Positions 2,927 through 39,084 of a DNA stretch of 63,649 nt are shown here, in pieces. Source of the DNA: Candidatus Margulisiibacteriota bacterium. GTDB lineage: Bacteria; Margulisbacteria; Riflemargulisbacteria; GWF2-39-127. Positions within the stretch are counted from its first letter, which is position 1, and each line of letters starts with the position of its first letter. The notes under the pieces are model-generated. The model was not told the DNA's origin and did not search any database. It was given only the letters and a program-made list of their open reading frames with translations. The stretch is taken from contig QKMY01000038.1 in the NCBI GenBank assembly GCA_003242895.1, positions 1-63,649 of the forward strand. The letters are read 5' to 3'. The translations under genes and the position numbers were made by a program.

Positions 2927-2938
2927 AGGAGATTTTTT

Positions 2939-6259: not shown

Positions 6260-6293
6260 TTATTCTTCACAAAAAAAATAAAAGGAGTAAGAA

Positions 6294-8003: not shown

Positions 8004-8007
8004 GAAA

Positions 8008-8016
8008 TGTTATAAT
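8008..8016 (+). promoter_or_regulatory. Extended -10 promoter (TGTTATAAT) giving a leaderless ATP-grasp mRNA
   Basis: TGT-TATAAT is a perfect extended -10 element that ends 8 bases before the ATG at 8025, so transcription should begin at or next to the start codon. No Shine-Dalgarno lies between them. Confidence 0.55.
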
Positions 8017-8024
8017 ATACTATT

Positions 8025-10119: not shown

Positions 10120-10359
10120 AATGTTTATATTTAAAGGGCTAAAACTTGCGGATTATATAATTATCATTATACTGAGAATATGAGATTAGGAGAAGAGAAT
10201 CTTGAAAATTTTCATTCATTTTAGCATAACTATTTTTGTTTATGATTTTGGTTGGTAACTATAGTGGTTTCCGGCTAATCAAATGTTTACGGGTGGTAGT
10301 AATAGTTTCATCAAGAGAAAGCGTATGTTAATTATCCGGAATTATCAAAGGTCAACAAA

Positions 10360-11355
10360 TTGAGTAGGTTAGTTATCGTCTGGAACGTCACTGATAACTG
10401 CAATGGGGCTTGCCTTTTTTGTTCCTATGGCAGTAATAATCACCCCGTTAACCCATCGCAAGCTCTAAGAAGTACCGACAAAGATGAAGCAGTCAGATTC
10501 GGTAAGTTATTATGTGATTATAGCCGCAAAACAAACCGGGAAGTACTGGTAAGCTGGCTTGGCGGCGAACCATTGCTTTGGGAACCAGTATATGAATTGT
10601 CACATGTTTTCTTTAATAAATTTGGTATTCAGTTGAGTGCTACTACTAATGGAATTGCTCTTCAAGCTAAAAGAATTCGACAACTGGCCCTGGATTGTTT
10701 TGATGAGATTACGATAAGTCTTGATGGACCGGAAGAATTTAACGATTGGTCCAGAAATCATCAGGGACTTTTTCAAATAGTGAAAAAGAATATATTTTTG
10801 CTCCATGAAGAAAAAATGAGACAGAACAAAAAATTACGCATTAAAGTTAATACTATCCTTATGCGTGGAAATATCCGGTATTTTGAAGGATTCTGTAACT
10901 CCCTGTGTGATTGGGGTGTTGAGGCGGTAAGTTTTAACCAATTAGGCGGGCGGATGCGTCCGGGGTTTTATCCGGAAAATCGCCTGTTGCCAGAACAGGT
11001 CACTATTTTTAAATCAGAGTTTTTACGAATAAAAAATGAGTTGTTTACAAGAGGATTGGTTGTTTATGGAAATGACAAATATCTCGACTGGATAGCTCGC
11101 ACAGCTGGTAATGAAAAAGGAGAAATGCAGGAATGCAATCCCGGAAAAGCTTTTCTGACAATATCATCAGATGGACTGGTTTCTCCCTGTAGTTCAACTG
11201 CCAGTGACTATGGCGTTCATTCGAAGGAACTCAAGGATTGGAGCGATATTGATTCGCTTGAAACAATATTTCGGAATAAACGGTTGAAGGAACAGTCGTC
11301 AGCTTGTGGAAACTGCCGCTCAACACAGGTCTTCGGTAAGTTCGAATCAGCATAA
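10360..11355 (+). CDS. Radical SAM protein with SPASM/twitch-like C-terminus
   Basis: The 331-residue protein begins at a TTG codon preceded by AAAGG 7 bases upstream; no in-frame ATG would keep the N-terminal strand VIVWNVTDNC. The radical SAM motif is CNGACLFC (CX3CX2C) near residue 14, followed by SWLGGEPLLW and ATTNG. The C-terminus has CNPGKAFLTISSDGLVSPC and CGNC, typical of auxiliary-cluster radical SAM enzymes. It is the first gene of a plus-strand run, with the next start 13 bases after its stop. The likely reaction class is modification of a peptide or small-molecule substrate. It is not a duplicate of the divergent radical SAM gene; the sequences differ outside the motifs. Confidence 0.8.
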   Translation: MSRLVIVWNVTDNCNGACLFCSYGSNNHPVNPSQALRSTDKDEAVRFGKLLCDYSRKTNREVLVSWLGGEPLLWEPVYELSHVFFNKFGIQLSATTNGIALQAKRIRQLALDCFDEITISLDGPEEFNDWSRNHQGLFQIVKKNIFLLHEEKMRQNKKLRIKVNTILMRGNIRYFEGFCNSLCDWGVEAVSFNQLGGRMRPGFYPENRLLPEQVTIFKSEFLRIKNELFTRGLVVYGNDKYLDWIARTAGNEKGEMQECNPGKAFLTISSDGLVSPCSSTASDYGVHSKELKDWSDIDSLETIFRNKRLKEQSSACGNCRSTQVFGKFESA

Positions 11356-11368
11356 GAAGGGTATATCC

Positions 11369-13333
11369 ATGAAAAAAGAGTATCCTAAAATAGCAGTTGG
11401 GTTTGTCCAGATCAGCAGCAATTTCCCCGGTGCAGCGTATCTGCCGTATGCTGTCGGATGCCTTCAGGCTTATGCTCAAAAATATCTCGATTATCCTGAA
11501 CAGTATATTTTTTTGCCTCAGATTTACAAAAGGATTCCGGTAGACGAGGCGGTAAAATGCCTCATCTGCGCCGATATTATTGGTTTTAGTTCCTATATCT
11601 GGAACTCACGTATTACTCTGGCAATTGCCAGGGAATTGAAGCGTCTCAAACCTCAAACGGTCATTGTTTTTGGCGGTCCTCACGTACCTCAAATGCCCGA
11701 GGATTTTTTGAGGCAAAATCCTTTTATTGATCTTGTCTGCCACGGAGAAGGAGAAGCAAGTTTTTGTGCAATCCTTGAGAAATTTCCTCAAAAAAAATGG
11801 AGCGGCATTCCTGGGGTAAGTTATATTGGTCAGGATGGGGCTTTTATATCAGCGAAACCGAATGCTCAGATTAAAGAACTTAGTACTATTCCTTCGCCAT
11901 ATCTGTCAGGGGTATTCGATCAACTTATCGAAAACCCTGGAGTTAGATGGCTTGCCGCCTGGGAAACCAACAGGGGTTGTCCTTATAGCTGTTCCTATTG
12001 TGACTTTAGCGCAGCTCTCTCCAGTAAGGTTTATATCCGCGAGATGGATTTGCTCCGGCGTGAGTTCGAATGGTTCGCCGATAATAAGATAGATCTTGTA
12101 TACTGCACAGACGCTAATTTTGGAGTTTTCCCGCGGGACGTAGAAATTGCAGAATTTTGCGTGAATATCCGAAGACAGACTGGTCATCCGCGGGCATTCA
12201 TGATGGAGAGTTCCAAAACGATCACTGATAATTTCTGGAAGATCCATGATATCGTCGAGCATTCTGACTTTGCTTCATACGCAGTCCTGTCGGTTCAGAC
12301 ATTGAATGATCAGTCACTTCAGGCGATCAAACGCCATAATATCTCCCTTGAGATGTTCCACGAGGTTCAAAAACGTTGTTTCCGGGAAGGGATTACGACC
12401 ATGACAGATTTGATCCTCGGTCTGCCGGAAGAGAGTTATGATTCTTTTGTCCAAGGGGTGTCGATACTTTTGGATAAGGGTCAACACCATAATATTCAGT
12501 TCAATAACCTCTGTATTTTACCTAACTCTGAAATGGGGGACAAAAATTATCAAGAGAAATATGACCTTCAGCTAATTGAGGTAGGTATTGTGAATCAGCA
12601 CGGGCTCATAAGTATCGAAGGCGATGTTCCCGAGGTTCAAACTTTGGTAATCGGATCACGGACAATGCCTGTTGAAGACTGGATACGGGCCCGTGCCTTC
12701 AGTTGGATGACATCGTTCCTTTTTTTCGACAAATTACTTCAGCTGTCGATTGTTATTCTCAGAGAGGCAGCCGGTATTGATTACCGCTTGATAATCGAAT
12801 TTTTCATGGAGAGCTCTCATCTGAATACATTTCCCGTTCTTTCAAGGATCACTTCGCTTTTTACTGAAAAAGCACGGGAAATTACCGAAGGCGGTACGGA
12901 GTACTGCTACAGTGCTCAGTGGCTGGGTATCTGGTGGCCGGTTGATGAATATGCTTTAATTGATCTTTATTATTCAGGTAAAATTGATATTTTTTATGAT
13001 GAATCTCTGCAAATTCTTGAATCTTTTATCCGAAAACACTCTCAGTTTCTCATTTACAAAGTGTATCTCCGTGATGCACTACTCCTGACCAGGTCAGCCC
13101 TGAAACTTCCACGCCAGCAAGAGGATATGGAAATAGAACTTTCTTCAAACATTTATCAGTTCTATCAAGGAGTGCTCTCGGGAGATCGTGTTCAGCTTGA
13201 AAGCAAATCCTCGAACTACATTATCAAAAGGAGCACAGAATATTGTGATAGTAACGAGGAATGGTTAAGAAAAGTCGTCTGGTATCAAAATAAGATAGGA
13301 AGCTATCTCTACCCCATAACCGAGGGCAATTGA
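11369..13333 (+). CDS. B12-binding radical SAM protein (BchE/class B methylase-like)
   Basis: I chose the ATG at 11369 because AAGAAGG lies 8 bases upstream; longer in-frame versions would run into the previous gene. The 654-residue product starts with a cobalamin-binding Rossmann region (YLPYAVGCLQAY, ADIIGFSSY, VIVFGGPHVPQ, DLVCHGEGE) in residues 10-145, then a radical SAM core with CPYSCSYC (CX3CX2C) near residue 203, and a long C-terminal region of about 300 residues. The DxHxxG cobalamin motif is not obvious, as in many members. Known relatives catalyse methylation at unreactive carbon or phosphorus, ring closure or oxygenation. It is co-directional with and overlaps the regulatory region of the second B12-type gene. 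Confidence 0.8.
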   Translation: MKKEYPKIAVGFVQISSNFPGAAYLPYAVGCLQAYAQKYLDYPEQYIFLPQIYKRIPVDEAVKCLICADIIGFSSYIWNSRITLAIARELKRLKPQTVIVFGGPHVPQMPEDFLRQNPFIDLVCHGEGEASFCAILEKFPQKKWSGIPGVSYIGQDGAFISAKPNAQIKELSTIPSPYLSGVFDQLIENPGVRWLAAWETNRGCPYSCSYCDFSAALSSKVYIREMDLLRREFEWFADNKIDLVYCTDANFGVFPRDVEIAEFCVNIRRQTGHPRAFMMESSKTITDNFWKIHDIVEHSDFASYAVLSVQTLNDQSLQAIKRHNISLEMFHEVQKRCFREGITTMTDLILGLPEESYDSFVQGVSILLDKGQHHNIQFNNLCILPNSEMGDKNYQEKYDLQLIEVGIVNQHGLISIEGDVPEVQTLVIGSRTMPVEDWIRARAFSWMTSFLFFDKLLQLSIVILREAAGIDYRLIIEFFMESSHLNTFPVLSRITSLFTEKAREITEGGTEYCYSAQWLGIWWPVDEYALIDLYYSGKIDIFYDESLQILESFIRKHSQFLIYKVYLRDALLLTRSALKLPRQQEDMEIELSSNIYQFYQGVLSGDRVQLESKSSNYIIKRSTEYCDSNEEWLRKVVWYQNKIGSYLYPITEGN

Positions 13334-13335
13334 AC

Positions 13336-14571
13336 ATGTACATACTTCTTGTGAACACGCCATCTGGAAATAACTCCAAAATATACCCCATCGGACTTGA
13401 TTATCTTGCCAGTTATTTATCGCACTTAGATGTACGGGTGGAGTGCCTGGATTTGGACCTATGCATGCCTGAAACAAGAAAAAAACGGTTACAAGAGACT
13501 GTAAAAACCCGACAATACGATATTATTGCCTTCAATCTAAGAAACTTATGTGATCAAACGGTTGCCGGTAGTTTTTATATACCATTACTAAAAGAGCTAA
13601 TTGAGTATGCCCGCTTAGCAGCAGGCAGCAACCAGCTTATTGCTATTGGTGGGGCAGGTGCCAGTATTTCTCCTGAGCAGATAATGCGCAAGGTGAATGC
13701 GGACGCAGTTATAGCCGGGGATGGTGAAGCTGGATTTGCTGAGCTGATACGGCTGCTCAATAAAGGTCATGAAATAACGGGAACAGTTATCTCATCACGA
13801 ACTGATCTGCACAGAAGCTCCTATATTCGCGGATCATGGGGATATCTGGAACCGTACCTGGAACTTGGTGTCGATGGCAATTTGCAAACTAAACGCGGCT
13901 GTAACCGGTTATGCGTTTACTGTTCTTACCCGATTATCGAAGGCCCACATATTCGTTTGCGTAATCCGGTAGTTGTGGCTGAAGAATTTTTGCAGTTGGA
14001 GCGAATAGGGTTTAAGAAGATATTTATTGTAGATGCTGTATTCAACAACCCGCTGCATCACGCTAAAGAAGTGCTGCGAGCTATGATCGCTGCTAAATCA
14101 ACGACGGAATGGACCGGTTTCTTTTGTCCCAAGTACATCGATCAGGAGCTTCTCGATCTTGTTAACTCCACTAACGGGGGTCATCCTGTAAAAATAACGA
14201 TTGATAGCGGTTCTGATACTATTCTTAGTTCTCTTTCCAAAGGTTTTACCCGTAGCGATATTGTTTCTGCTACAAAACTATGTCGAAAGTCCGGTATTCC
14301 TTTTTCCTTCACGGTACTTTTTGGCGGACCGGGTGAGAATATAGAAACAATCGCAGAAACTTGTGAATTGATTAAGGAGACAAAACCTGAATATGTATCA
14401 GCTTCAATAGGAATCTATGTCTATCCCCAAACGAAGCTGGCAAGTATGTGCGCCTATGAAGAGCATGAATTACTCGGAACAACTAGCTATCCGGTTAACA
14501 GGGGCGGGGTTAAATTCCAGGTAGAAAAGCATCTGGAAGGCTGTGCATTTCCTGTGTATCTTCAATATTAA
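13336..14571 (+). CDS. Second B12-binding radical SAM protein
   Basis: The start is placed at ATG 13336, 2 bases after the stop of the previous gene, with GAGGG about 9 bases upstream; a TTG at 13330 is possible. The 411-residue protein has a B12-binding-type N-terminus (YPIGLDYLASYLSHL, IIAIGGAG-like LIAIGGAGASIS, ADAVIAGDGEAGF) and a radical SAM core with CNRLCVYC (CX3CX2C) near residue 192, then FTVLFGGPGE. It is shorter than its upstream neighbour and has little C-terminal extension. Two different B12 radical SAM genes in tandem suggest two successive alkylations or rearrangements on one product. The substrate cannot be read from the sequence. Confidence 0.8.
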   Translation: MYILLVNTPSGNNSKIYPIGLDYLASYLSHLDVRVECLDLDLCMPETRKKRLQETVKTRQYDIIAFNLRNLCDQTVAGSFYIPLLKELIEYARLAAGSNQLIAIGGAGASISPEQIMRKVNADAVIAGDGEAGFAELIRLLNKGHEITGTVISSRTDLHRSSYIRGSWGYLEPYLELGVDGNLQTKRGCNRLCVYCSYPIIEGPHIRLRNPVVVAEEFLQLERIGFKKIFIVDAVFNNPLHHAKEVLRAMIAAKSTTEWTGFFCPKYIDQELLDLVNSTNGGHPVKITIDSGSDTILSSLSKGFTRSDIVSATKLCRKSGIPFSFTVLFGGPGENIETIAETCELIKETKPEYVSASIGIYVYPQTKLASMCAYEEHELLGTTSYPVNRGGVKFQVEKHLEGCAFPVYLQY

Positions 14572-14582
14572 TCCCTGCGTTA

Positions 14583-14603
14583 GCAAGCAGAGGCTATGCT
14601 TGC
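14583..14603. terminator. Inverted repeat between convergent genes
   Basis: GCAAGCA and TGCTTGC form a 7-bp perfect stem with a 7-base loop, between the stop of the plus-strand radical SAM gene and the end of the minus-strand operon. There is no clear T-tract, so a bidirectional terminator is only a possibility. Confidence 0.35.
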
Positions 14604-15382
14604 CTATCCTTTATGCACGGCTTTTTCATGCAGAGGCAATTGTCCGGCGATATTTCTAACCACCCGTATTTAAGTTTTTTTTCTCGAAATAAAGTAATAT
14701 TTTTGTATCTTTTTTTACTAAGAGAACCCTGTAAATATTTTTGTAATTTTTCTAAAAAAACAATTACTTTTAGCAGTCCTTTGGTCTGATAATAATAGCT
14801 TGGATAATCTGCCAGAACAATAATTCCGTCATTATTTAGAAGACTATCTAAACGCTCGGCAAATCGGTCCATTAATGAATAGGCGGCATCAGGTTCTAAC
14901 AAGATATTATCCCATAGGGAAGCTAGCAGTTTTTCATTGTGATATACGTTACGCAGTTCAATTCCGAATGTCGTGCAATGGTTTTCTATTACCAGGTCGT
15001 CCAGAAAATGGTTAGCCGTAATTATGTTAAATGGTTTACAGTTAAGTTCCCATAAGGTGTTAGCGATAGCGGTTACTTTGAATTTCGCATTTATATAATC
15101 AAGAAAAGAAACGGCTTTAACCAGGATCGAAGGAGCAATATCCACCATAGATAGCTCACCGGTAAAGCCAGTATAATGAAGCCCAAGTTCAACTTTTGGA
15201 TACACTCCACAGCCTATATCCATTATCCTGGTATGGTTATCAATCCCGGTTTTTTTAAAGATATCGGACCATAATCTTCCGACGGCAGCGACAGAATAAA
15301 ATTCAGTATAGAATTCATCGCTGCGATCCGGATTAAAAATATCAGATTCTATGGTGCCTTTAGTTGTTTTTTTTATGGTAAT
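14594..15382 (-). CDS. SAM-dependent methyltransferase-like protein, probably with a non-ATG start
   Basis: The SAM-binding motif MDIGCGVYPK and the strand GELSMVDIAP identify a Rossmann methyltransferase. The first ATG in frame (15221-15223) would cut into motif I. The frame stays open for another 53 codons upstream, reading EFYTEFYSVAAVGRLW and WSDIFKKTGI, which aligns with the N-terminal region of the paralogous methyltransferase at 21880-22779. I therefore place the start at an ATT (complement of 15380-15382), 14 bases after the NadR stop with AGGA about 10 bases before it, giving about 262 residues. Both paralogs share ANH(F/I)(L/I)DDL. It is the last gene of the operon. A sequencing error in a missing ATG cannot be excluded. 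Confidence 0.65.
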   Translation of the reverse strand: MTIKKTTKGTIESDIFNPDRSDEFYTEFYSVAAVGRLWSDIFKKTGIDNHTRIMDIGCGVYPKVELGLHYTGFTGELSMVDIAPSILVKAVSFLDYINAKFKVTAIANTLWELNCKPFNIITANHFLDDLVIENHCTTFGIELRNVYHNEKLLASLWDNILLEPDAAYSLMDRFAERLDSLLNNDGIIVLADYPSYYYQTKGLLKVIVFLEKLQKYLQGSLSKKRYKNITLFREKKLKYGWLEISPDNCLCMKKPCIKDRQA

Positions 15383-15396
15383 TATTTTTCAATCCT

Positions 15397-16377
15397 TTAT
15401 ATTTGCAGCAATAAATCGATCGCTGCAATAGACTTTTGCAGGCGTTCGTTCCACGTGCCGTTTATTTCTACAAAGCCGGCTTTTTTTTCAATAAGTTTAT
15501 TCTTTATCATTGTATAGAAATGGTCTCTGTTATCGGGTGAATACCTATGCACATCGTCTATCCAGGGTACATCTATATCCATGAGTAAATAAAGATCATA
15601 GTGATTGTTTATTGCAGCTTTTTCGAGCCAGTTATCACATTTGCCATATAAAAAATTGCTCCAGACTGTTGTCGTTAAGATGTCTGTATCACATATCAAT
15701 ACCCGGTTAGAGGAGGGAATTACGGAACGTTCCAGGGCTAATTGTCCTTTGGCTATCTTGCTCATGTCTCTATAGCTGAGTTTTCCTTTTTGAGAGTGGA
15801 TAAGAGTCTTGGCATATTCGGGAACATATTTGGTTTTATAATGATTTGCCAGGTTATCTGCTAACGTTGATTTGCCTGTAGATTCAGGTCCGACAATACA
15901 TGCCTTTTTTACATAATAAGGCTTTACCGCATCAGGAATATATTCCCAGTATTTGTCAGGGTTATTTCTGATCTGGGTTGCTGATATGGGGACAGATTCT
16001 CTATTCATGTCTACTGGTATGAATTCAGTATCTAACAACTCAGCTAGTTTGTGTCCATAGTTCTCAGAAGCAAAAATATAATCAACTTTTTGCGGGAGGA
16101 TTTTGTTTAGGCTATTTTGCCATATTTTCCAGAAATCAGGATTTTCAACGGGTTCCTGCGGGTTAAGGTCTGTTAAATGCAGTATCTTACATTCCGGGAA
16201 CGCTGATCTGAGCCAGGTAATTCTAAGCTCACTGGGGATGGGCTCGTTTTTTGTTTTTTCAACAATTATATAGAGGTTATCAACGTAATTCCTGGCAAAG
16301 TTGATAAGATGAAAATGTCCTTTATGTGGCGGCATGAACTTGCCAAGAACTAACCCTGTTGTTTTTCTTTTTTCCAT
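15397..16377 (-). CDS. nadR: NadR-like NMN adenylyltransferase / ribosylnicotinamide kinase
   Basis: The 326-residue protein has a nucleotidyltransferase domain with GKFMPPHKGH near residue 12 and the later ISATQIRNNP motif, followed by a P-loop kinase domain with GPESTGKSTLA near residue 163. This is the two-domain layout of NadR without the N-terminal DNA-binding helix-turn-helix of the enterobacterial protein. The known activities convert nicotinamide riboside to NMN and NMN to NAD. It begins 1 base after the stop of the A-T-reductase gene and is translated as part of the operon. A NAD salvage enzyme inside a biosynthetic operon is odd: it may supply cofactor or make a pyridine nucleotide or analogous adenylylated building block. 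Confidence 0.8.
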   Translation of the reverse strand: MEKRKTTGLVLGKFMPPHKGHFHLINFARNYVDNLYIIVEKTKNEPIPSELRITWLRSAFPECKILHLTDLNPQEPVENPDFWKIWQNSLNKILPQKVDYIFASENYGHKLAELLDTEFIPVDMNRESVPISATQIRNNPDKYWEYIPDAVKPYYVKKACIVGPESTGKSTLADNLANHYKTKYVPEYAKTLIHSQKGKLSYRDMSKIAKGQLALERSVIPSSNRVLICDTDILTTTVWSNFLYGKCDNWLEKAAINNHYDLYLLMDIDVPWIDDVHRYSPDNRDHFYTMIKNKLIEKKAGFVEINGTWNERLQKSIAAIDLLLQI

Positions 16378-16378
16378 A

Positions 16379-19135
16379 TCAGACTTTCATTGCTTCCTTG
16401 ATGTATAGATGTATCAGGTTTCTATCAGGTTTTATTATAGCTTTTTTGCTCACGAACTTAAATGTGTTTGACATATCAAACGTGAAACCGGTTGCCAGGA
16501 AAAGATCGGCTGCTTTATGGATATTAAAAAAATCATTATCAAAAATCCTGCATAGATTAATGATATTAATTCTGTTACTTAATGATTCTGCTTCAAGCAG
16601 TGTTTTTTTCCATAAGATGCAGTCTACGGACCTTACTCCAAAATCACTCAGATATTCTATTAATTGATTGTAATTCAGGCTTACGGGATTGGCTATATGA
16701 AAGTGTGTATTCTCATGGTTGCTATGACATATTTTTACAGTAATTCCAGCAGCGATATCAACCGGGGTTATATCCATTTTCATATCACCAACCGAGATGG
16801 GTATTATTCCGGTTTTGACTGAAGATTTTAAGAAAATTTGCAGGAAGTCATTTTTAGGGGCTATTCCATATCTGCTATCTCCTGTCAGCAGTCCGTATCT
16901 AAAAATGTTTACCTTTATTCCTAGATCTATTAGCTTATTGATAAGATATTCTGCTGCCCACTTAGATTGGGCATAGCCTCCATATAACGTGTTAATACTG
17001 CATAGATCAATATTTTCTTTTAAAGTAGTTTCTTTTATATCACTGTTTACAAACACCGATAGGGTAGATGCATAATTTAAGGTCTTTTCATTGCCGTTAA
17101 GACAAAAATCTATAATGTTTTTTGTCCCTGTAACATTTGCAGCTTTTAACGAATCATAATCTTTAATCAGATTAACTTCTCCGGCCAGATGATATATTGT
17201 ATCGATTTTTGTTGCGAGCGTGTTGTACCGATCTGTGTCCATATCGAAATGTTTTTTTGTGATATCACCGGAAATTGCATGAATCCGCTTAAGATATTCT
17301 TTTTTGAATTTTAGATTATACCTTTCAAAGGTTGTTAGAACTCTTTCCATAATATTTTGCTGAGATCCGCCTCTGATTATGCAATATATATTGAAACTTT
17401 TATTCTGAAGCAGATAATACAAAACCCTTGAACCAAAAAAACCTGTTGCGCCAGTAAGAAGGATGTTTTGAGTAGCTTTATTGGCGGTATTATTCTTTTT
17501 TATTTCAGCAATTAAGACTTGAATGTCTTCAATAATTGCGTCGATACTTTTTGGACTAACTATGCTTAAGGTATTGACTATATTTTTGATAGTCTTTTGT
17601 TCATAAATTACTTGAGGGGAGATTGATATTCCGAGCTGTTCCAGCTTAACGATTGCCTCAATTACTCCAAAAGAGTCTATCCCCTCGCTTATCAGGTCAG
17701 CGTCATCATTAACAGGTTTTTTTAAAATATTCTCAAAAACTTTTTTTATGCAGTGAAGAGAATCGGAGCGCTTCACACTTAAGTCAGGGTGTGAATGTAA
17801 TTGAGAAAAGTCAATTTTCCCGGATGGCGTAATCGGAATATTTTTGAGTTCAATTATTCTGCTGGGGATCATCCAACCCGGTAGTATACCTGTTAGATTT
17901 TTTTGAAGATCAGCGTCCAACGTGCCGATAAAAGCTATGAGCTGTCCTTCACTTTTTATTACGGCACATTTTTTTTGGGTTACTGCTGAGATAGCAGCTT
18001 CGATTTCTTCGGGGTTGATCAGTTTTCCGTTTATTTTGAATTGCCTGTCTTTTCTTGCGCAAAATGTGTAGTTGTTCCCTGTATATTTGACCAGGTCACC
18101 GGTTAGGTATGCGGCTTCGCCGTTGAATGTTATGAATCTGTCATTTTCCGGTAGAGACTTGTTTATATAGCCTTTTCCTACGGTTTTACCGGAAATGATC
18201 AATTCGCCCTCGTTACTTATATGATAGGTAATGCCGTCCAAGGGCTTGCCGATAAACGGTGCATTCCAATCTGTGCTGCATATCGACAGACTGGTGCAGA
18301 TAGTGGCCTCCGTTGGACCATAAACATTTATTAGTCTATATTTTTTTGCCCATTTTCTGATTGTTTGAGCCTGGCATATTTCTCCCCCTATAATAATAGT
18401 TGTTAATGATTCCGGCATACTTGACATATCCATTATAGATAACAGGCTTGGCGGAATGTCCATAAGTGAAATAGCGTTGTATTGTAAGAACTCATAAAGA
18501 TTATTCAAGGACTGATATACTGTATTCTCCGGAATATACAACGTTGCTCCCGAACATAACGACACCAGGATGTCTGACATAGATGCATCAAACATTTTGT
18601 TGAGATACCAGATGCATTTACTACTATCCTTGAGGTGAAAATACTTGATTTGCTCACTAATCACATAAGGCAATCCCTGATGTGTTATCAACGATCCTTT
18701 CGGAATTCCGCTTGATCCGGAGGTATATATTACGTAAGCAAGATTGTCTGGATTGAAGGATGGATGCGCTATCGCAGGAGCACTTTCTTTCAAAAGAGAT
18801 ATGTTTTCCTTAGAAATAATGAAGTTGATATTCCCTTCAACTAATACCTGCTGAGTTCTTTTTTCCGGGTAGCTATTATCCAGAGGCGTGAAAGCAGCAT
18901 CCGCGAGCCAGATAGCTAAAATTGAGATAATATAGTCAACAGATTTATCAAGGCTTATCCCTATTATCGAACTATGGCCTTGACCATTATTTTTTAATGT
19001 CGCCGCAACAGCCTGAGCTTCTTTGAGGAGGTCCTTATAGCTTATTAACCTATGTTCATCGGCAATAGCTGTTTTGTCAGGATTTTTTTGCGAGATATCA
19101 ATAATGGTGCTTAATATGTGTCTGTCACGTTTCAT
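16379..19135 (-). CDS. NRPS-like A-T-R protein (adenylation, carrier, thioester reductase)
   Basis: This 918-residue protein has one complete loading and release module. The adenylation domain shows YTSGSSGIPKG near residue 136, NVYGPTEAT near 275, YLTGDLVK near 350 and the end motif TPSGKID near 445. The carrier domain has GIDSF near 485 with the phosphopantetheine serine. The C-terminal NAD(P)-binding reductase has LLTGATGFFG near 562 and YAQSK near 722. There is no condensation domain. Lys2 and carboxylic acid reductases share this order and convert an activated carboxylate to an aldehyde. The likely job is to activate one amino or carboxylic acid and release it as an aldehyde, perhaps reduced further by the dehydrogenase in the same operon. 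It overlaps the asparagine synthetase stop by 4 bases. Confidence 0.9.
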   Translation of the reverse strand: MKRDRHILSTIIDISQKNPDKTAIADEHRLISYKDLLKEAQAVAATLKNNGQGHSSIIGISLDKSVDYIISILAIWLADAAFTPLDNSYPEKRTQQVLVEGNINFIISKENISLLKESAPAIAHPSFNPDNLAYVIYTSGSSGIPKGSLITHQGLPYVISEQIKYFHLKDSSKCIWYLNKMFDASMSDILVSLCSGATLYIPENTVYQSLNNLYEFLQYNAISLMDIPPSLLSIMDMSSMPESLTTIIIGGEICQAQTIRKWAKKYRLINVYGPTEATICTSLSICSTDWNAPFIGKPLDGITYHISNEGELIISGKTVGKGYINKSLPENDRFITFNGEAAYLTGDLVKYTGNNYTFCARKDRQFKINGKLINPEEIEAAISAVTQKKCAVIKSEGQLIAFIGTLDADLQKNLTGILPGWMIPSRIIELKNIPITPSGKIDFSQLHSHPDLSVKRSDSLHCIKKVFENILKKPVNDDADLISEGIDSFGVIEAIVKLEQLGISISPQVIYEQKTIKNIVNTLSIVSPKSIDAIIEDIQVLIAEIKKNNTANKATQNILLTGATGFFGSRVLYYLLQNKSFNIYCIIRGGSQQNIMERVLTTFERYNLKFKKEYLKRIHAISGDITKKHFDMDTDRYNTLATKIDTIYHLAGEVNLIKDYDSLKAANVTGTKNIIDFCLNGNEKTLNYASTLSVFVNSDIKETTLKENIDLCSINTLYGGYAQSKWAAEYLINKLIDLGIKVNIFRYGLLTGDSRYGIAPKNDFLQIFLKSSVKTGIIPISVGDMKMDITPVDIAAGITVKICHSNHENTHFHIANPVSLNYNQLIEYLSDFGVRSVDCILWKKTLLEAESLSNRINIINLCRIFDNDFFNIHKAADLFLATGFTFDMSNTFKFVSKKAIIKPDRNLIHLYIKEAMKV

Positions 19136-20994
19136 AGATTAAACCTGTTCATAAGGATTGCCGCTGTAGTTATTAGCATGAGTACCGGTTCATAGGCGGT
19201 TTTTTCTGTTTCTGTCATATCTTTAACCTGCGTTAGCAGACGCTCAACACTGGTATAGCTAATATAGTTTTTCAGGTTTGATGAGTACAATGTGTCCAGG
19301 ACGTAATCACTGAATTCAGCTGGATAGAGCGTTGCCGGAGGGGACATGAGCGGATGTTTTTGTCTGGTTGCTATGTCTTCAATAACATATTCTTTTGCTA
19401 CTTCCCTTAAAATGTATTTTTCGATACTATTTATCTTTTGATCTATCGGAATTGTTTTTGTTATTTCGCATAGATTATGGTCCAGGAACGGGACTCTTCC
19501 CTCAATAGAAGCCGACATCTCCTGCCCGTCCCCCAGTGTATGCAAAATGTAATTGGCCAGAGTCAATTTGATCCACAAATACGAAGACTTATCGATCATC
19601 GAACCGTTCAGGCTTTTCTTTTTAGATCCGATTATTTTATTAAGGATGGTTGAGTATTCTTTGCCCTGACAAAAATCATGGGTAAACAATCCGTGCATTT
19701 TATAGCCAATGGAAGCTTTGGCCCTTAAAAAGGCCGGAACAAATCCAAGTTTGGTCTTAATAAAATCAAGGTCCAGTTCCTGACCAAAGGGAAGCTGTAC
19801 TCCAAGGGAAGCCTGGTTCTTGTAGTAAAGTGCCTTTAAATCCCGGCTGGCAGTACAAAGGTCTTGCCTGAAATGCGGATATCCGGCGAATAGTTCGTCG
19901 GAGCCTTCACCGGTCAGGGCAACGCTAAACCCTGCCTCTCTTACTTTTTTAAAAAGCAGGTGTTTTGCGGAGATATGTCCGTTAATCGCCAGGCCTTCAC
20001 CATAAAAAACCGCATCGGACAAGCTGTTTAAGATGTCACGGTTACTAATATGAACGGGATAAAACTTGATGCCCAGCTCGCTGGCTTGTTTTTTCGCCAG
20101 GTGATATTCATTATAGGTATCTTTCTCAAAACATAAGGTAAACGCAGGAATTTTATGGTCACTAATATTATTTGCTATAGAAGTAATTAAGGCCGAATCA
20201 ATTCCTCCACTCAATAAAGTACAGACTGGTACGTCCGAATCGAGCCTCACCTTAACTGAGTTGAATAGCGTTTTTTTTAGGATCGACATATTATCCTGCA
20301 AAGAAAGTCCATTGCTTTTGTCCGGGTAGTCTAAGTCCCAGTATTTTTTTATAGTTATCGTATTATTCGCATAAATTAGAATATGTCCCGGTTCAATCTG
20401 CATAATATTCTTGAAGAGTGTTTTGTCAGGAGAACAGTATTGAAAACATAAAGAATGGAAAAGCTGTTCTTCATCAAGTTCTCTTTTTATTCCCAGTGCA
20501 AACAACGCTTTTGCTTCTGATGCCAGGTATATACCGTTATTATTATAATAATTAAGCGGTTTTATCCCGAACCTGTCCCTAGCAGCAATGAGCGTGTCTT
20601 TTTTTTTGTCATATATAATAAAAGCAAATTCACCGCGTAGATATGAGAGAGATTCCAGTCCATATTCTTCATAAAGATGTACTAGTATTTCGCTATCAGA
20701 ATCAGTGCGGAAATGATGCCCTGAATTGATAAGTTTTTTTCTTATGCTCTTATGTTCGTAGAACTCACCGTTCACGGTCACAAATATTGTATTGTCTTCA
20801 TTTGGAATCGGTTGTCTGCCGTTATTTAATCCGATAACAGCTAACCTGCTATGGGCCAGTGCAACCATCTGATCATTACGGAACCAGATCCCGGTCCCGT
20901 CAGGCCCCCTGTGTTTTAGAGCAGTTAATGCAGTATTCAGGTCATCCTGGTTAATGCGATTGTTTGTTGATTTGATGCCGATGATTCCACACAT
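19132..20994 (-). CDS. asnB: Asparagine synthetase B-type glutamine amidotransferase
   Basis: The protein starts MCGIIGIK, placing the catalytic glutamine-hydrolysing cysteine at position 2, and has NGEFYEH and RDRFGIKPL in the N-terminal nucleophile domain. The synthetase domain has the PP-loop SGGIDSALI near residue 263 and GEGSDELFAGYPHF near 370. At 620 residues it is normal for the AsnB family. Family members transfer ammonia to an AMP-activated carboxylate; besides making asparagine they form amides in antibiotic pathways. Its place between the dehydrogenase (overlap of 1 base) and the A-T-R gene (overlap of 4 bases) suggests a dedicated biosynthetic role, but plain asparagine synthesis remains possible. 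Confidence 0.9.
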   Translation of the reverse strand: MCGIIGIKSTNNRINQDDLNTALTALKHRGPDGTGIWFRNDQMVALAHSRLAVIGLNNGRQPIPNEDNTIFVTVNGEFYEHKSIRKKLINSGHHFRTDSDSEILVHLYEEYGLESLSYLRGEFAFIIYDKKKDTLIAARDRFGIKPLNYYNNNGIYLASEAKALFALGIKRELDEEQLFHSLCFQYCSPDKTLFKNIMQIEPGHILIYANNTITIKKYWDLDYPDKSNGLSLQDNMSILKKTLFNSVKVRLDSDVPVCTLLSGGIDSALITSIANNISDHKIPAFTLCFEKDTYNEYHLAKKQASELGIKFYPVHISNRDILNSLSDAVFYGEGLAINGHISAKHLLFKKVREAGFSVALTGEGSDELFAGYPHFRQDLCTASRDLKALYYKNQASLGVQLPFGQELDLDFIKTKLGFVPAFLRAKASIGYKMHGLFTHDFCQGKEYSTILNKIIGSKKKSLNGSMIDKSSYLWIKLTLANYILHTLGDGQEMSASIEGRVPFLDHNLCEITKTIPIDQKINSIEKYILREVAKEYVIEDIATRQKHPLMSPPATLYPAEFSDYVLDTLYSSNLKNYISYTSVERLLTQVKDMTETEKTAYEPVLMLITTAAILMNRFNL

Positions 20995-21896
20995 TAGGCT
21001 ATACTGGTTAAGAAAATTTTTTTTGTCTGATCAAGTGAATCTTTGTAAAAAGCTTTGTTAAAATCTGCCAGGTCGAATATTTCACCATAAAGGTCTTCAA
21101 TAAAAAAATTATCGTCGATTATTAATTTCAAAGCCTGATCAAAGCTGCCGTAATTGGCAAATTTTATCGTTATCTCTTTTTTTTGTAATTCTTGCAAAGG
21201 TAATGCTAGCTCCTGCGGAAATTTACTTTTAATGATGAGTGTGCCATGCTGTTTAAGCAATAATAGGGCTTTAAATATATTCTCATTTGAAATATCCGTT
21301 TCTACTATAAAATCGTATTCAGATGTAAGCTGATTGGTCTCAAGAAAGCAGTTATTATATCCTAAATATTTCAATATTCTGTGAGCAAGGATTGCTATCC
21401 TGCTGTGACCAAGGATAAGGACATTGTCCCTGGGGCGAATCCCGGTGTTTAAGATAGACAATGCTGCTGCGACCGGCTCAAAAAATATAGCTTTTTTGTG
21501 CTTGATATTTTTAGGTATACGATATACGGATGATTCGGGAACAACAATATATTCAGTAAATGACCCGTTATAATTAAGTCCCATAAATCGACTATTTTGG
21601 CAGGTGTCGTGAGCAACGTTTCCACATGGGGTATCCTTACAACTTTGTATCGGGGAGATGCAGACCAATTCGCCTGTGCTTATTCCGTGACCGGATGATT
21701 GTATGACTTCTCCGACACTTTCATGCCCTAAGATAATTGTATGAGGGGTGAGAATTGCATTCTCAGCCACAAGCCTATCGGTCCGGCAGATACCTGATAA
21801 TATTATTTTCACCAGAACATACTTATTTTTATCAATCACCGGGTAATTGATGTTTTTTAATTCGGTTATTCCGTTTTCTTTAATTAGTGCTTTCAT
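20994..21896 (-). CDS. Zinc-type medium-chain alcohol dehydrogenase-like protein
   Basis: The 300-residue protein shows the MDR catalytic-zinc pattern: SGICRTD near residue 37 and GHESVGEV near 57, with later cysteines CGN and CQN that could hold the structural zinc. The nucleotide-binding region reads VLILGHSRIAILAH, a weak version of GxGxxG, and the chain is shorter than the usual 340 or so residues, so cofactor binding may be altered. In context it could interconvert the aldehyde released by the A-T-R protein and an alcohol or ketone. It overlaps the upstream methyltransferase by 17 bases and the downstream synthetase by 1 base. Confidence 0.75.
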   Translation of the reverse strand: MKALIKENGITELKNINYPVIDKNKYVLVKIILSGICRTDRLVAENAILTPHTIILGHESVGEVIQSSGHGISTGELVCISPIQSCKDTPCGNVAHDTCQNSRFMGLNYNGSFTEYIVVPESSVYRIPKNIKHKKAIFFEPVAAALSILNTGIRPRDNVLILGHSRIAILAHRILKYLGYNNCFLETNQLTSEYDFIVETDISNENIFKALLLLKQHGTLIIKSKFPQELALPLQELQKKEITIKFANYGSFDQALKLIIDDNFFIEDLYGEIFDLADFNKAFYKDSLDQTKKIFLTSIA

Positions 21897-22779
21897 TTTT
21901 CCTCAGTATAAATATATTATTGCTGTTAAAATAGCGCTCTTTATATTTATTTAATTCAGCCGAATGATATTGAGAATGATCTTTGTAACCAATTTCTTTT
22001 AGGGACTGAATAACCTGTTGAAAAGCATCTGTAATGAGCTTTACCCAGTTTGATATGCCCAGGTTCTTGTCTGTCAGTGATCCGTATTGCGAAATAATCA
22101 GATAACCGTTATTCGATATATATTTATCTAAGGTTAATACTGTTTTTTTTATGAATTCAATGATATTTATTTCCTCTGGTATTCTCTGTATAGTCTCTAA
22201 AAAAACAGTCTCTGTTGTGTATATATCAACAAGGTTTTTTTCATGCAGGATACAATATTCGTTAATTAATAGATCATCGATAATATGGTTTGCAACAACA
22301 AGGCTTGCGTTAGTGTTATGTAAATCATAAATGTTTTTATTAATTATGTTAACGGAGAATTCGGGTTTGAATAGTTGTATAAAATCCGTTAATTCATTAG
22401 TAGCCTCGTTACTGTAATCTATTACTGTAACCTCACCTGTATAATCCAGTTGCTTAAGCGCTATTTCCAGTTTTGGTGCCCATCCGGGACAAAGGTCAAT
22501 GATATGCGGATAGTTTTTAAGGTCAAACGTTTCCAGTACTTTTGAGATAGTGCTGGCCAGATTATAATATGACTTGAAATAGATAAAGAATTCCCTGGTC
22601 CGCCTGTAGATATCGTATTTATTCCGGTTAACAAAATCAGTATATTTGTAATTGCCATTCCGGAGGCGTTCAAGCATGGCGTATAGTTCTACATATATAT
22701 TATCCGCTTCTATTTCTGTTAAATCTCTTTTATTGATAAATTCTTCAATATTGTCAAGGATGGTTAAGATTTTTTTCAT
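21880..22779 (-). CDS. SAM-dependent methyltransferase-like protein, first gene of the operon
   Basis: The 299-residue protein has a Rossmann SAM-binding signature in divergent form: IIDLCPGWAPKLEIAL near residue 95, then TGEVTVIDYSN, and VVANHIIDDLLI near 160. The same blocks occur in the protein at 14594-15382, so the two are paralogs at opposite ends of the same operon. The GxGxG motif is replaced by LCPGWAP, so it may bind SAM in an altered way or transfer another group (for example aminocarboxypropyl); that is speculation. The gene has a -10-like TATACT only 6 bases before its ATG and no clear Shine-Dalgarno. Confidence 0.65.
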   Translation of the reverse strand: MKKILTILDNIEEFINKRDLTEIEADNIYVELYAMLERLRNGNYKYTDFVNRNKYDIYRRTREFFIYFKSYYNLASTISKVLETFDLKNYPHIIDLCPGWAPKLEIALKQLDYTGEVTVIDYSNEATNELTDFIQLFKPEFSVNIINKNIYDLHNTNASLVVANHIIDDLLINEYCILHEKNLVDIYTTETVFLETIQRIPEEINIIEFIKKTVLTLDKYISNNGYLIISQYGSLTDKNLGISNWVKLITDAFQQVIQSLKEIGYKDHSQYHSAELNKYKERYFNSNNIFILRKNESTN

Positions 22780-22949: not shown

Positions 22950-24329
22950 ATGTATAAAAAAGTAATTGACGCCAAAGTCTCTAAAATTAAAGTCGTTAAC
23001 GAATTTTTTGATGTAAAGGAAGTAAAAGCAATTTTAGGAAAAATTGCGCATCGCATATATCTCGATTCGGAAGTCCTCCAGTTACGACGCTTCATGAGCC
23101 ATCAATTCGGTATCAATTCCAGAGCCCTGACTCTTGAGGAATTTAAACGGATATACGTGGGGGATCATTTGCTTAAAATAGGGTTTTCCGGACCTACTAA
23201 TCCATCGAAAGAAAAGATAGAAGAACAAAGTGAGGCAGTCAGTCGTATCATCGGCAGCTTATCAAACAGGATCGGGGCTGTTGTCCATGGCGGTACAATG
23301 TGGGCTTTCATCAGGGCCGCTCACATAAAAGCGATAGAGAAACAAAAGTTATCTATAGGAGTTATGCCGTGGGTAGGCATCAGTGATCTTTTAAAGATCA
23401 AAGACGAGATCCCTGAGAATTTTCCTAAAATGGATTATCTCGCTATCACCGGGCAAGGATATGAAGATCATGCCAATATTTTTGCTAAAGCTTTGGACTT
23501 TTTAGTCCTGATGGGAGGCAGATCCGGGGCGCTGGCAGAAGCCGTCGCAACCACAAACCAATCGAAACACGTAATTTCTCTTATGATGGGCAATGAGCAG
23601 GACGAAGCTTTTCAGGTGTTTAAGAACGGTATCTGGTATACCGATAAGGTTGATGAGATAGCTGAGTTTGTAGAAAACAACTTAATACCAAGTCAGCAGT
23701 TGTTTAAAGGCAGGCAGGTTGCTCTTCATGATTTTTTAAAAAATACCCATGATAAAATCAGGGTTGGATTTGCCGGTAATACCGGTAGAAAAACAGATTT
23801 AGGTCTTCATAACCAAATACTTTCAGGACTAATAGATAATATAAGGCCGTCATTTTTTACTCAAATGGAAGCAGTTTCCGGCATGACAAATGTCGGAGGA
23901 GTGAGGGCTTATTATGAAATGGCTAAAGAGAACAACATATCCCGATCAGGAATTATGAGTAGTAAAGGTATCGGATATAAGCTGGCGGATTGTGACAATA
24001 TGGTCGTATGGGGTAATGAATGGGGAAGTGAATCCAATATATTTTTGTCTTCTTCAGATGTTTTGTTGGTCTTAGGTGGAGGAGACCAAACGGCAAAAGA
24101 AGCAGAAAAAGCGTTAGTATCAGGAGGCCGATTCGGATCAGGGATACCGGTAATTGCTATTCATGACCCATTGGTAGGTAATTGGAGCTATGATAGTTTT
24201 AATAGCATGAACGGCAGTAAACGCCTCAGTCGCGCTGAATATTTTTCTTCATCTCAACTTTTTAAAGCTGCGCAGAGACTAAACGAAGTTTTCGAATCTA
24301 TTCTTTTACAGAGAAACAAACGGTTTTAA
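22950..24329 (+). CDS. Tandem SLOG/LOG-like Rossmann protein
   Basis: The 459-residue protein looks like two copies of a SLOG (SMF/DprA-LOG) nucleotide-binding domain. The first half has KIGFSGPTNPS near residue 73, VVHGGTMWAF near 110 and LVLMGGRSGALAEA near 192. The second half repeats this with RVGFAGNTGRKT near 270 and LLVLGGGDQTAKEA near 378. The GG(R/G)(S/D)(G/Q)xxxE pattern is the typical ligand-binding loop of LOG/YgdR-type proteins. Known LOG enzymes release bases from nucleotides, and SLOG proteins have been proposed as sensors in nucleotide-signal conflict systems. GAAAGG lies about 8 bases before the ATG. It converges on the large kinase-Nudix gene 73 bases downstream. Confidence 0.65.
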   Translation: MYKKVIDAKVSKIKVVNEFFDVKEVKAILGKIAHRIYLDSEVLQLRRFMSHQFGINSRALTLEEFKRIYVGDHLLKIGFSGPTNPSKEKIEEQSEAVSRIIGSLSNRIGAVVHGGTMWAFIRAAHIKAIEKQKLSIGVMPWVGISDLLKIKDEIPENFPKMDYLAITGQGYEDHANIFAKALDFLVLMGGRSGALAEAVATTNQSKHVISLMMGNEQDEAFQVFKNGIWYTDKVDEIAEFVENNLIPSQQLFKGRQVALHDFLKNTHDKIRVGFAGNTGRKTDLGLHNQILSGLIDNIRPSFFTQMEAVSGMTNVGGVRAYYEMAKENNISRSGIMSSKGIGYKLADCDNMVVWGNEWGSESNIFLSSSDVLLVLGGGDQTAKEAEKALVSGGRFGSGIPVIAIHDPLVGNWSYDSFNSMNGSKRLSRAEYFSSSQLFKAAQRLNEVFESILLQRNKRF

Positions 24330-24402: not shown

Positions 24403-27387
24403 TCATTTAAGATATTTTTCCCACAGTCCCAGCGCATGAACTAATCGCATAACAGAAATTGCCAGATGTCCGTCATGGAACTTTTCCAGATTACTAAAAG
24501 TATCTTTTAGCGAAACCCATTGGATATTATTATCTTTCAAGGCATTACCTGCAATAAAAAAAGATGTTACGCGTTCCGGAGTAATACCTACACTCGGATA
24601 ATATTCCCCGGCAAGCCTGTGAATGTTCTTTACGTCAAAAGTCCCTTCGAAACTGTCTTTTATAAAAGCATTTACAGCTGAATCGCTATTTATGCTTTTT
24701 GGCAGTCGAAATGCAGGTGCGGTAATAATTCTGCTGTTGCCTTCTCTAATTTGTGGTGCCGGCAAGTCCCGCTCTTCCAACCCGATAAATACCTCGCCGT
24801 CATGCAGGACTACGGGTAAAGTAACAATTGTATTCGTACTAAGATGTTTCGGAATAATAAATTCGCGGGTAACTTCAGCCAGTTCATTGTTTGCAGAATC
24901 AACTTCTGTAAATGTTGCATTAATGTGCTCCAGGAAACCTGAGGAGTTTTGGGTTTTCTGAAATACAGTTTTTGGTTCCTTTGCGAATAACTCGTTAACA
25001 CTGGTCTTTTCTTGTAGTTTGCCTTCAATTAAAACTATTTTTTCGCCCAACCATTTTTCCGGAACTAATCCTAAAGACCGAAGTAAAAAATAACAGTTCA
25101 GTTCTAATCTCGCTTCAGGCAGAGAACCGGTTTGTGCGGACTCTAAAATTTGCTGAATATCAAAAAATTCCAGGGTTCCTGATTCAGTCAGATCAGAATA
25201 ATTATTGATTTTGTCAGGTTGGTCCCCAGAGATTTGAATATGTTTAGCATAGACAATTTCATCAAGGCCCCCTGGTGACGTGTATATTGTGGGTCCACGA
25301 TTAATAGCTAAAATGTTCTGGGGTTTTATTCCTGCTCTAATCAGTAATGTCTGCTTTGTTTTTTCTGTATCAAAGCTATCGATATCAGCAACACTTATCG
25401 GCTCAATTATATATCCGCCGCTGACCCATTGATTCAGTCTGCTGCTGCCTCTTTCGTCAGTGTTAATCAAGGGGCGGGGAAAATTCTTTTTTGCCATGAC
25501 AAATATTTTGTTATTAGCTTTATCATAATAATAAGGCAAAAGATCTGCAATATCTCCACCAGGCCTGCTGGCTAAATCAAAAATAGCAGAAGTTTCAATG
25601 TTTTGAAAATGACGGAACTGCACATAAGGGGTCTTTATGGGTTTCTGGTCAGTCTCTATAATTTTAACGGCTTTCCCTGAAACTTTTTGTGCTATTCCGG
25701 TCCATTGAATCGCAGGTAACTCAATAGGGGTATTTTGATTGTCAAAAATTTGCCAGTCTACGGCTTTGTCCGTGATAGATTTCTTTGGTAAAGCTAGGGA
25801 AGATAGTAATCTTAACCCTAGATTACTTAATTCATGTTCAAATTGATCTTTGGTCCAGAAGGTGAATTTGTATTTTAAATTAGTATTCCAACAGCTTTGA
25901 TCATCTTTCCTGATTAAGAATTCTACTGCATCATTCAGCGGTAGAGAAAAGCTTCTTTTTTCTGGCTGATCAGTTGGAATTTCTGTTAATAGAAAGCCTC
26001 TGCGTTCCTGGTTGTAGTTAGAATATGCGTCCTGTGAAAAAGAAACCAGAAGCTCTGCATCTGATAAGCCGCCATTATTGGATTTCGCTGATAATTCCAG
26101 ATTGACTATTTGTTTTCCATTATTAAGCTGAACGAAAGAATTAATAACCAGAGTTCCATCTTCATTGAGCTGGCTCACTTGGTTTTCTAAAATATTTCTA
26201 ACAATTGCGGGATCATAATTATTAGTAGAATACTCTGTATGCAGGGCTAAATAATTGATAATCCCGTCCAGTTTTTCCTGAGATGTATCGTTTAGAGTTT
26301 TGCGTTGAAAGGAAAGGTTATTACTGGTTTTTTCATAAGCTAACGTACTTGAAACCGGGTTGATGTCGACTAAACTAACATCACGGTATTTTGTTGCAAA
26401 ATAAAAAGCCTGGCTGCTTTTACCCCTGCCTAAATGCAGGGAAACTTTGTTTGATTTGCTTAAAACATAGGGCATACTTCTGATCATAGAAACTAATATA
26501 TCCGGATCAAGCCAATCTGATGGTTGTTTCGCAATATCTTCGGTCTGGTTTTTAGAATTTCCTGAGGCAATTTGTTGTGCAATACTTTCTGCTACTGACG
26601 AACTAATTCGGCCTTCTTTTATAAGTCTTGTAATTTCCTGTAATATTTTTTGTTTCAGTTGTTCGAAAGTATAATCAAATCTGGGTAGCTCTGTAAGCGA
26701 TGTTTCACTGCTAATTCCGGCAGTTGAAGTATTATCAATATATCTGGTTTTAATTTGGTCCTTATACTTGTCCTCAAGTTGGATAATACTGTTTAAAACT
26801 TTGCTGTGCATTCCAGAATGGGCATTGATTGAAACTTGTCTGCTTTCTTTAATTGCCCTGGGTAGTACTCCGTTAATAAAAGATTCGACCGGATCTCTCT
26901 GTGTAAATATGATTTCCACGTTATATCCGAATTTCAGCGCCTTATCAATCAGCCCTGAAGCAAAATTAATATCAGCTAGCGTAGAATCATAAACCATCGC
27001 ATAATCCGCCATATTGACACCGGTATTTTTTAAAGCTGTGGTTTTTCCGCTGCCTGATCCGCCGGCAGTGAACAAGATCGTGTTGTTTTTGAGGTTTTTT
27101 TGGTTGATCAGCATATCTTCATAGATATTCATGGTGAGAAGTGATGCAGCCGGATAATAAATGTCCGGATCATTAACTGAATATCCTGGAATAAGAAAAA
27201 TTGCGTCATCACTGGAAACAATAGAGTGCAGGCCATAGTTTTGACTAACCCGCTGGTAATACAACCGGATTAATTTATCCATGTTATTTTCAACATAATT
27301 TATGGTTTTTGTTTCTTCTTTGGCTATTTCGGTTAATGAGCGTTTGTCGACTTTTTTATCTTCATAATTAATAAATTTCTTTTGCAC
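24403..27387 (-). CDS. Zeta-toxin-like kinase fused to a Rossmann domain and Nudix-like domains
   Basis: This 994-residue protein starts at GTG with GAGGAAGG 7 bases before it. The N-terminal P-loop GGSGSGKTTAL near residue 110, followed by DYAMVYDSTLAD and IIFTQRDP, matches a zeta-toxin/UNAG-kinase-like domain. Residues about 300-430 resemble a methyltransferase-like Rossmann fold (VSLHLGRGKSS, VSLVDINP). Residues about 590-730 and 850-994 both look Nudix-derived: each has a segment like YTSPGGLDEIV or YYPSVGITPERVTSFFI, although the full Nudix box GX5EX7REUXEEXGU is not intact. I know of no family with this exact order. It could act on nucleotide-linked sugars or as a toxin-like effector; its convergent SLOG partner is suggestive only. 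Confidence 0.6.
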   Translation of the reverse strand: MQKKFINYEDKKVDKRSLTEIAKEETKTINYVENNMDKLIRLYYQRVSQNYGLHSIVSSDDAIFLIPGYSVNDPDIYYPAASLLTMNIYEDMLINQKNLKNNTILFTAGGSGSGKTTALKNTGVNMADYAMVYDSTLADINFASGLIDKALKFGYNVEIIFTQRDPVESFINGVLPRAIKESRQVSINAHSGMHSKVLNSIIQLEDKYKDQIKTRYIDNTSTAGISSETSLTELPRFDYTFEQLKQKILQEITRLIKEGRISSSVAESIAQQIASGNSKNQTEDIAKQPSDWLDPDILVSMIRSMPYVLSKSNKVSLHLGRGKSSQAFYFATKYRDVSLVDINPVSSTLAYEKTSNNLSFQRKTLNDTSQEKLDGIINYLALHTEYSTNNYDPAIVRNILENQVSQLNEDGTLVINSFVQLNNGKQIVNLELSAKSNNGGLSDAELLVSFSQDAYSNYNQERRGFLLTEIPTDQPEKRSFSLPLNDAVEFLIRKDDQSCWNTNLKYKFTFWTKDQFEHELSNLGLRLLSSLALPKKSITDKAVDWQIFDNQNTPIELPAIQWTGIAQKVSGKAVKIIETDQKPIKTPYVQFRHFQNIETSAIFDLASRPGGDIADLLPYYYDKANNKIFVMAKKNFPRPLINTDERGSSRLNQWVSGGYIIEPISVADIDSFDTEKTKQTLLIRAGIKPQNILAINRGPTIYTSPGGLDEIVYAKHIQISGDQPDKINNYSDLTESGTLEFFDIQQILESAQTGSLPEARLELNCYFLLRSLGLVPEKWLGEKIVLIEGKLQEKTSVNELFAKEPKTVFQKTQNSSGFLEHINATFTEVDSANNELAEVTREFIIPKHLSTNTIVTLPVVLHDGEVFIGLEERDLPAPQIREGNSRIITAPAFRLPKSINSDSAVNAFIKDSFEGTFDVKNIHRLAGEYYPSVGITPERVTSFFIAGNALKDNNIQWVSLKDTFSNLEKFHDGHLAISVMRLVHALGLWEKYLK

Positions 27388-28872: not shown

Positions 28873-29096
28873 AGTAAGTTCCGATATAATAGAAATCATG
28901 ACTGTTCCGGGTGCCGGTTATATCGATAACCTATTGAGAAAACAATCAAAATGGGCGAACTTGTTTTTTTCATGAGCGCAATACGGATTGTGCAACGTCT
29001 CCAAATTGTTTTAAATACAGCAAATTGCTACCCAAATTGCATTCTTTATACTACTATATAAGAAATGTAATAAATCAACGGGAAACAGATAGAAAA

Positions 29097-30596: not shown

Positions 30597-30815
30597 ATAA
30601 TAAAAAAATGACAGTTTTAGTGTCCTCTTCGGTGTATGGAATTGAAGAGTTATTAGAAAGAATTTACTCCATTCTTACTTCCTTTGGATATGAAGTCTGG
30701 ATGTCGCACAAGGGTACAATTCTCTCGTTATCAGGAAGCGGAACGGTTTATCGAAGAGAACTTTTCTCCACCAGATAAGGTTCTTAATAGTATTGAAAGG
30801 GAAAAGTTCAGATGA
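30593..30815 (+). pseudogene. DUF4062 gene with a large internal deletion
   Basis: The first 43 codons read KMTVLVSSSVYGIEELLERI and then a GYEVWMSHKGT segment, the typical N-terminus of DUF4062 proteins. After about 30716 this frame loses similarity. From about 30717 a different frame reads RYQEAERFIEENFSPPDKV and ends KFR-stop at 30813-30815, which fits the C-terminus of the same family and overlaps the next ATG as ATGA. Intact DUF4062 proteins are several hundred residues long, so most of the middle is gone and the ends are out of frame. Both preserved junctions show that the gene once filled this operon position. A 61-residue product could still be translated. Confidence 0.75.
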
Positions 30816-39072: not shown

Positions 39073-39084
39073 GGAAATACATTA

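Follow-up and report, generated by a model that had tools for sequence, protein, structure and literature searches.

The window, that is, the whole 63,649-nucleotide stretch of Margulisiibacteriota DNA analysed here, carries a gene cassette in which an amino-acid reductase with adenylation, carrier and thioester reductase domains in one chain (A-T-R) is paired with a NadR-type protein, and the two are found together in all five cassettes known to us (the window, G032, G447, G444 and the viral contig L060). At the level of conserved motifs the active sites of A-T-R, AsnB and NadR are intact, and A-T-R and NadR recur as a unit. The cassette is real and conserved, and a single amino acid is very likely the starting point of a small molecule made by it. 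All the enzyme families are familiar; what is new, provisionally, is that A-T-R and NadR are paired and how widely the pair is spread. We know of no pathway that ties an NRPS-like amino-acid reductase to a nucleotide kinase/adenylyltransferase, and full-text searches of open-licence papers returned neither a relevant counterpart of the combination nor a match to a known cluster, as the earlier note on this DNA had expected. It is possible, although we hold this with some doubt, that A-T-R and NadR define a new mobile pathway, shared between two bacterial phyla and a phage, whose product is an amino-acid derivative linked to a nucleotide (an NDP-amino alcohol or NAD analogue), possibly with a role in phage–host conflict. 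Since the set has only two to six genes and its adenylation pocket hardly changes between distant hosts, a single well-designed assay might uncover a new class of metabolite. With a phage DNA polymerase adjoining and NAD- or ADP-ribose-related genes nearby, a role in phage–host conflict or NAD chemistry is directly testable.

ORF analysis of the window places the cassette in six minus-strand genes transcribed from 22779 to 14594 in the order MT1–MDR–AsnB–(A-T-R)–NadR–MT2. MT1 (21880-22779, 299 aa) is a class I SAM-methyltransferase-like protein without a Pfam or NCBIfam match, and MT2 (14594-15382) is its paralogue (23% identity). MDR (20994-21896, 300 aa) is a short zinc-type dehydrogenase with an ADH_N domain, AsnB (19132-20994, 620 aa) is a glutamine-dependent amidotransferase with Asn_synthase and GATase domains, A-T-R (16379-19135, 918 aa) has AMP-binding, PP-binding and NAD_binding_4 (thioester reductase) domains, and NadR (15397-16377) has AAA_28 and CTP_transf_like domains and no HTH domain. 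MT1 and MDR overlap by 17 bases, MDR and AsnB by 1 base (TAATG), and AsnB and A-T-R by 4 bases (ATGA); A-T-R and NadR are 1 base apart. The 14-base spacer between NadR and MT2 (15383-15396) requires that MT2 start with ATT at 15382, and a ribosome-binding-like AAGGA at the upstream end of the spacer precedes this ATT. The MT2 frame is open from 15382 and has no in-register ATG, GTG or TTG upstream of 15223; a start at ATG 15223 would widen the gap to 173 bases and remove about 53 residues. The ORFs, strand and junctions of the single coupled operon described in the earlier note are as claimed, the ATT start of MT2 being the one weak point. As a unit, however, the operon is composite, with a conserved core that lacks the methyltransferases, and the constancy of NadR as the partner of A-T-R had been overlooked. 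The G+C content of the 15-23 kb region (0.32-0.42 per kb) is below that of most of the window, which would fit acquisition from elsewhere.

Among 143 genomes, the only strong near-full-length match to A-T-R (35%) was in G032, which belongs to the same phylum and another family. G032 has MDR–AsnB–(A-T-R)–NadR in the same order as the window, with identities of 34, 44, 34 and 51%, and no methyltransferase genes. Four genes co-ordered in the genome of another family at 34-51% identity are more than chance. A profile search with the window and G032 A-T-R sequences found homologues (E about 1e-246) in G447 and G444, two genomes of another phylum (12.6 and 13.2 Mb), where the set is PhyH-type dioxygenase–(A-T-R)–NadR with no MDR, AsnB or methyltransferase gene nearby; in G447 the A-T-R and NadR genes overlap at ATGA. 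The fifth cassette is on an 11.5 kb IMG/VR contig (L060/L063, IMGVR_UViG_3300031998_007288) in the order DNA polymerase–NadR–MT–MDR–AsnB–(A-T-R), with the five cassette genes overlapping. The polymerase is T4-type (phrog_262, 494 bits), and the biosynthetic cassette is apparently carried by a phage, as judged from a single contig in which chimerism is possible. The order MDR–AsnB–(A-T-R) is common to the window, G032 and L060; A-T-R is accompanied most constantly by NadR, and MDR and AsnB are missing in one lineage. Scans of viral sequences with A-T-R, MDR, AsnB and NadR gave the L060/L063 contig only, and the remaining viral AsnB proteins stand alone. No named phage was a convincing carrier: full-length matches reached only 24-26%, came from staphylococcal phage records and look like host NRPS sequence. 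A-T-R searches found no cassette in the phylum of G131 (1 genome) or in the phylum of G118 (82 genomes). The earlier note had named dispensable fragments scattered in relatives as evidence against its proposal; what we found were intact cassettes.

The window A-T-R consists of an adenylation domain (residues about 1-450), a carrier domain with Ser488 and an SDR-type thioester reductase domain (about 555-918) in one chain. The motifs GIDSFG, TGATGFFG and YAQSK are intact, with YxxxK at 721-725. Domain calls found no condensation domain in the chain and agree with the single-module enzyme, free of condensation domain and PKS, that had been proposed. The reductase scored 232 bits against TIGR01746, above the cut-off of 213. 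A genuine Lys2 or carboxylic acid reductase (CAR) is ruled out by the scores, 243 bits against a cut-off of 1030 for Lys2 alpha-aminoadipate reductase (TIGR03443) and 140.9 bits against 1300 for CAR (NF041592). The reductase domain is nearest to MxaA/MxcG-type reductases. The chain shares its A, T and R domains and intact motifs with MxcG/AusA-type modules (by HMM) and with the R domain of MxaA (structure library), but falls far below the equivalog cut-offs for MxcG (381 against 2300), AusA (342 against 2500) and CAR (141 against 1300), and unlike known single-module A-T-R enzymes it is partnered with NadR, AsnB and MDR. A prediction of the adenylation pocket, proposed as a check in the earlier note, was obtained by alignment: the pocket reads DASDIGVICK in the window, DASDVGVICK in G032, G447 and G444, and DGSDIGVICK in L060. 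The pocket is near-identical in all cassettes, and therefore one common substrate is likely. Ten other adenylation domains met along the way all have pockets different from that of the cassette; as a control of the reading, two of them gave a Ser-like (DVWHFSLIDK) and a Phe-like (DAYTIAAVCK) code. The nearest published codes, which we take to be those for Gln/Glu (DAxDLGVVDK) and Lys (DAESIGSVCK), are a lead only.

AsnB retains the glutaminase residue Cys2 and the SGGIDSA PP-loop and belongs to the AsnB type (TIGR01536, 426 bits; cut-off 267). It is 44% identical to its G032 orthologue and 36% to that of L060. The catalytic zinc ligands of MDR (Cys37, His58, Glu59 and Glu140) are kept in the window, G032 and L060 orthologues. 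The GxGxxG dinucleotide-binding motif is replaced in all three by a GxxRIA-type motif (GHSRIA, GDNRIA and GDPKDRIA). The predicted MDR structure had a pLDDT of 34, too low to use. An AlphaFold model of MT1 (pLDDT 69.5) gave Foldseek matches to class I methyltransferases, which supports a class I methyltransferase fold with moderate confidence. A nicotianamine-synthase-like identity for the two proteins was rejected, because the fold search returned generic class I methyltransferases only. The earlier note took the methyltransferases as defining brackets of the set. They are absent in G032, G447 and G444, and the methyltransferase of the phage-like contig is merely a generic class I enzyme. Beyond the window, the sole relative among 136 genomes is in G005; it is 33% identical to MT1 and stands in a different gene set, outside any A-T-R cassette. 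The methyltransferases are accessory and lie outside the conserved core.

The window NadR has a nucleotidyltransferase and a ribosylnicotinamide-kinase-type (RNK) domain with intact HxGH, SxTxxR-type and Walker A motifs, which place it among NadR proteins, and it scores below the cut-off of the NadR equivalog (TIGR01526, 283.6 bits against 341). It is 40-42% identical to the NadRs of Caulobacter phage CcrSC and viral contig L042. The PnuC-linked NadRs of phages and plasmids (NR kinase/NMN adenylyltransferase) have the same two-domain layout and the HxGH, SxTxxR-type and Walker motifs. We examined 15 further NadRs without an HTH domain, from viral contigs, plasmids of six organisms and Caulobacter phage CcrSC, and each had PnuC in the same locus, whereas it was beside NadR in none of the five cassettes (loci including L015, L049 and L050). 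No PnuC (PF04973) is encoded in G000, G032 or G005, and the cassette NadR does not form an NR-salvage unit, which would have PnuC in the genome or beside NadR. A housekeeping NadR was also rejected, since none of the 72 other genomes of the phylum has a NadR (E<=1e-30) and G000 has NadD, which is above the cut-off there and gives a weaker match in G032. In a tree without long-branch rows, the NadRs of the four bacterial cassettes group in a single clade (support 99/97). A first tree with long-branch viral rows, two of which intrude in this clade, was set aside as probably distorted. The L060 NadR is outside the bacterial clade and groups with canonical NadR (AU p 0.0009). Either NadR therefore entered the pathway on two or more occasions, or a single replacement took place; both histories suggest that the pathway needs a NadR-type activity. 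The lid motif D-G-x-R is changed to D-[DP]-[VP]-x-R in all four NadRs of the bacterial cassettes. The L060 NadR keeps a canonical lid (QDGLR), and so the lid change was rejected as proof of a new substrate.

We favour, with less than even confidence, a reading in which NadR activates the product of the reductase. The adenylation domain, with its polar pocket and Asp at position 235, would load a single amino acid, always the same one, onto its own carrier, and the reductase domain would use NAD(P)H to release an amino aldehyde, or the alcohol directly. The zinc MDR could finish or reverse the aldehyde/alcohol step, and AsnB would add an amide from glutamine. The kinase and nucleotidyltransferase domains of NadR may then phosphorylate and nucleotidylate the product, a substrate suggested by gene context, and the methyltransferases, or the PhyH dioxygenase in the other phylum, could tailor it. 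The order acid, aldehyde, alcohol, phosphate and nucleotide-linked product would give a role to every core enzyme, with AsnB adding the amide. In Kennedy-type routes an amino alcohol is activated by a kinase and a nucleotidyltransferase. Choline kinase and cytidylyltransferase would be the analogue of the step proposed here, acting likewise after the amino alcohol, but their protein families are different from NadR. We count for NadR activation the presence of A-T-R and NadR in every cassette, the ATGA coupling in G447, the shared pocket, the shared MDR–AsnB–(A-T-R) order, the absence of PnuC, NadD in G000, the lack of NadR in the other 72 genomes of the phylum and the MxaA/MxcG-like reductase domain. 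MDR and AsnB are not near the pair in G447 and G444, and their steps are therefore not universal. The canonical motifs of NadR and the grouping of the L060 protein with canonical NadR speak against NadR activation and favour ordinary NMN/NAD chemistry.

Such chemistry is the chief rival, and we consider it somewhat unlikely. NadR would be canonical, and the pathway would use NMN/NAD or make a NAD analogue, with the A-T-R aldehyde joined or converted to a pyridine-nucleotide-type product and AsnB forming a carboxamide as NadE does. All signature motifs of NadR are intact, and the two separate NadR clades in cassettes are most simply explained by a need for the canonical activity. SLOG and macro genes lie near the window cassette. 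NAD is a building block in the altemicidin pathway (PMC11610977), a precedent with which the cassette would share NAD-derived chemistry. However, no cassette contains a PLP enzyme of the SbzP type or a ribosyltransferase, and a PLP-dependent annulating enzyme is likewise missing from the six window genes; G000 and G032 lack PnuC, G000 already has NadD, and mere NAD supply would not need a dedicated NadR.

An ordinary NRPS-like pathway, in which the amino aldehyde is itself the active compound or forms a dihydropyrazine or pyrazine by dimerisation and NadR serves only redox cofactor supply or regulation, is unlikely. Aldehyde release by single-module A-T-R enzymes is well established, and the domains of the cassette enzyme are intact. 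This explanation leaves unaccounted for both AsnB and the NadR found in every A-T-R cassette and coupled to A-T-R in two lineages.

The cassette of the window adjoins a second locus (254-11355 and 22950-24329) that is conserved in G005 (L024 and L033). It includes a vWA gene (254-2926; MIDAS DISAS, HEEIH motif), a double-AAA gene (2939-6259; P-loops GVTGAAKT and GLPATTKT), a macro gene (6294-8003), an ATP-grasp gene (8025-9023; 49% identical to its G005 homologue), a SPASM radical SAM gene (8986-10119; 42%) and a SLOG gene (22950-24329; 52%). In G005 the homologues of all six surround the methyltransferase relative, and the locus has no A-T-R, AsnB, MDR or NadR. In the window, the cassette has thus been placed within, or fused with, a different conserved locus, and a methyltransferase gene lies at each end of the cassette. 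The radical SAM block, which had been taken as a neighbour of the cassette, belongs to this second locus, which also occurs without the cassette. In G023 (L032) only the vWA and AAA genes are present. MoxR-vWA conflict systems carry NAD-linked SLOG and macro domains and radical SAM enzymes (PMC7159879). The locus, with its vWA, double-AAA, SLOG, macro and radical SAM genes, looks like a new variant of them, but the cassette itself is absent from that text, where the terms NadR, asparagine, amidotransferase and adenylat- do not occur. That the cassette is an accessory of such a system, making its signal or effector molecule, is improbable: a MoxR-type AAA and vWA pair is near the cassette in all three cellular contexts (window 254-6259, L015 2191-8672 and L049 184-8144), but the three pairs are apparently of different families, the vWA-AAA set occurs in G005 and G023 with no cassette, and the proximity could be chance. 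Homology of the window and G032 vWA genes was not supported, as hhalign found no real match.

Other features of the window were also recorded. Two overlapping B12-binding radical SAM genes (11306-14571) are convergent with the operon, one nearest to KedN5-type C-methyltransferases and the other to rSAM_ladder_B12, both below cut-off. Beyond the SLOG gene, 24403-27387 encodes a protein of 994 aa whose N-terminal part has a zeta-toxin-like kinase domain and whose other regions have no Pfam match; by eye, the middle might be methyltransferase-like and the end Nudix-like. A restriction island (29025-42147) contains two HsdM paralogues (44% identical), HsdS and HsdR, together with a Schlafen-AlbA/Fic-like protein and an AAA ATPase–subtilase pair. 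Two overlapping ABC-transporter half-genes at 57341-60803 are about 28% identical and possibly encode a heterodimeric exporter.
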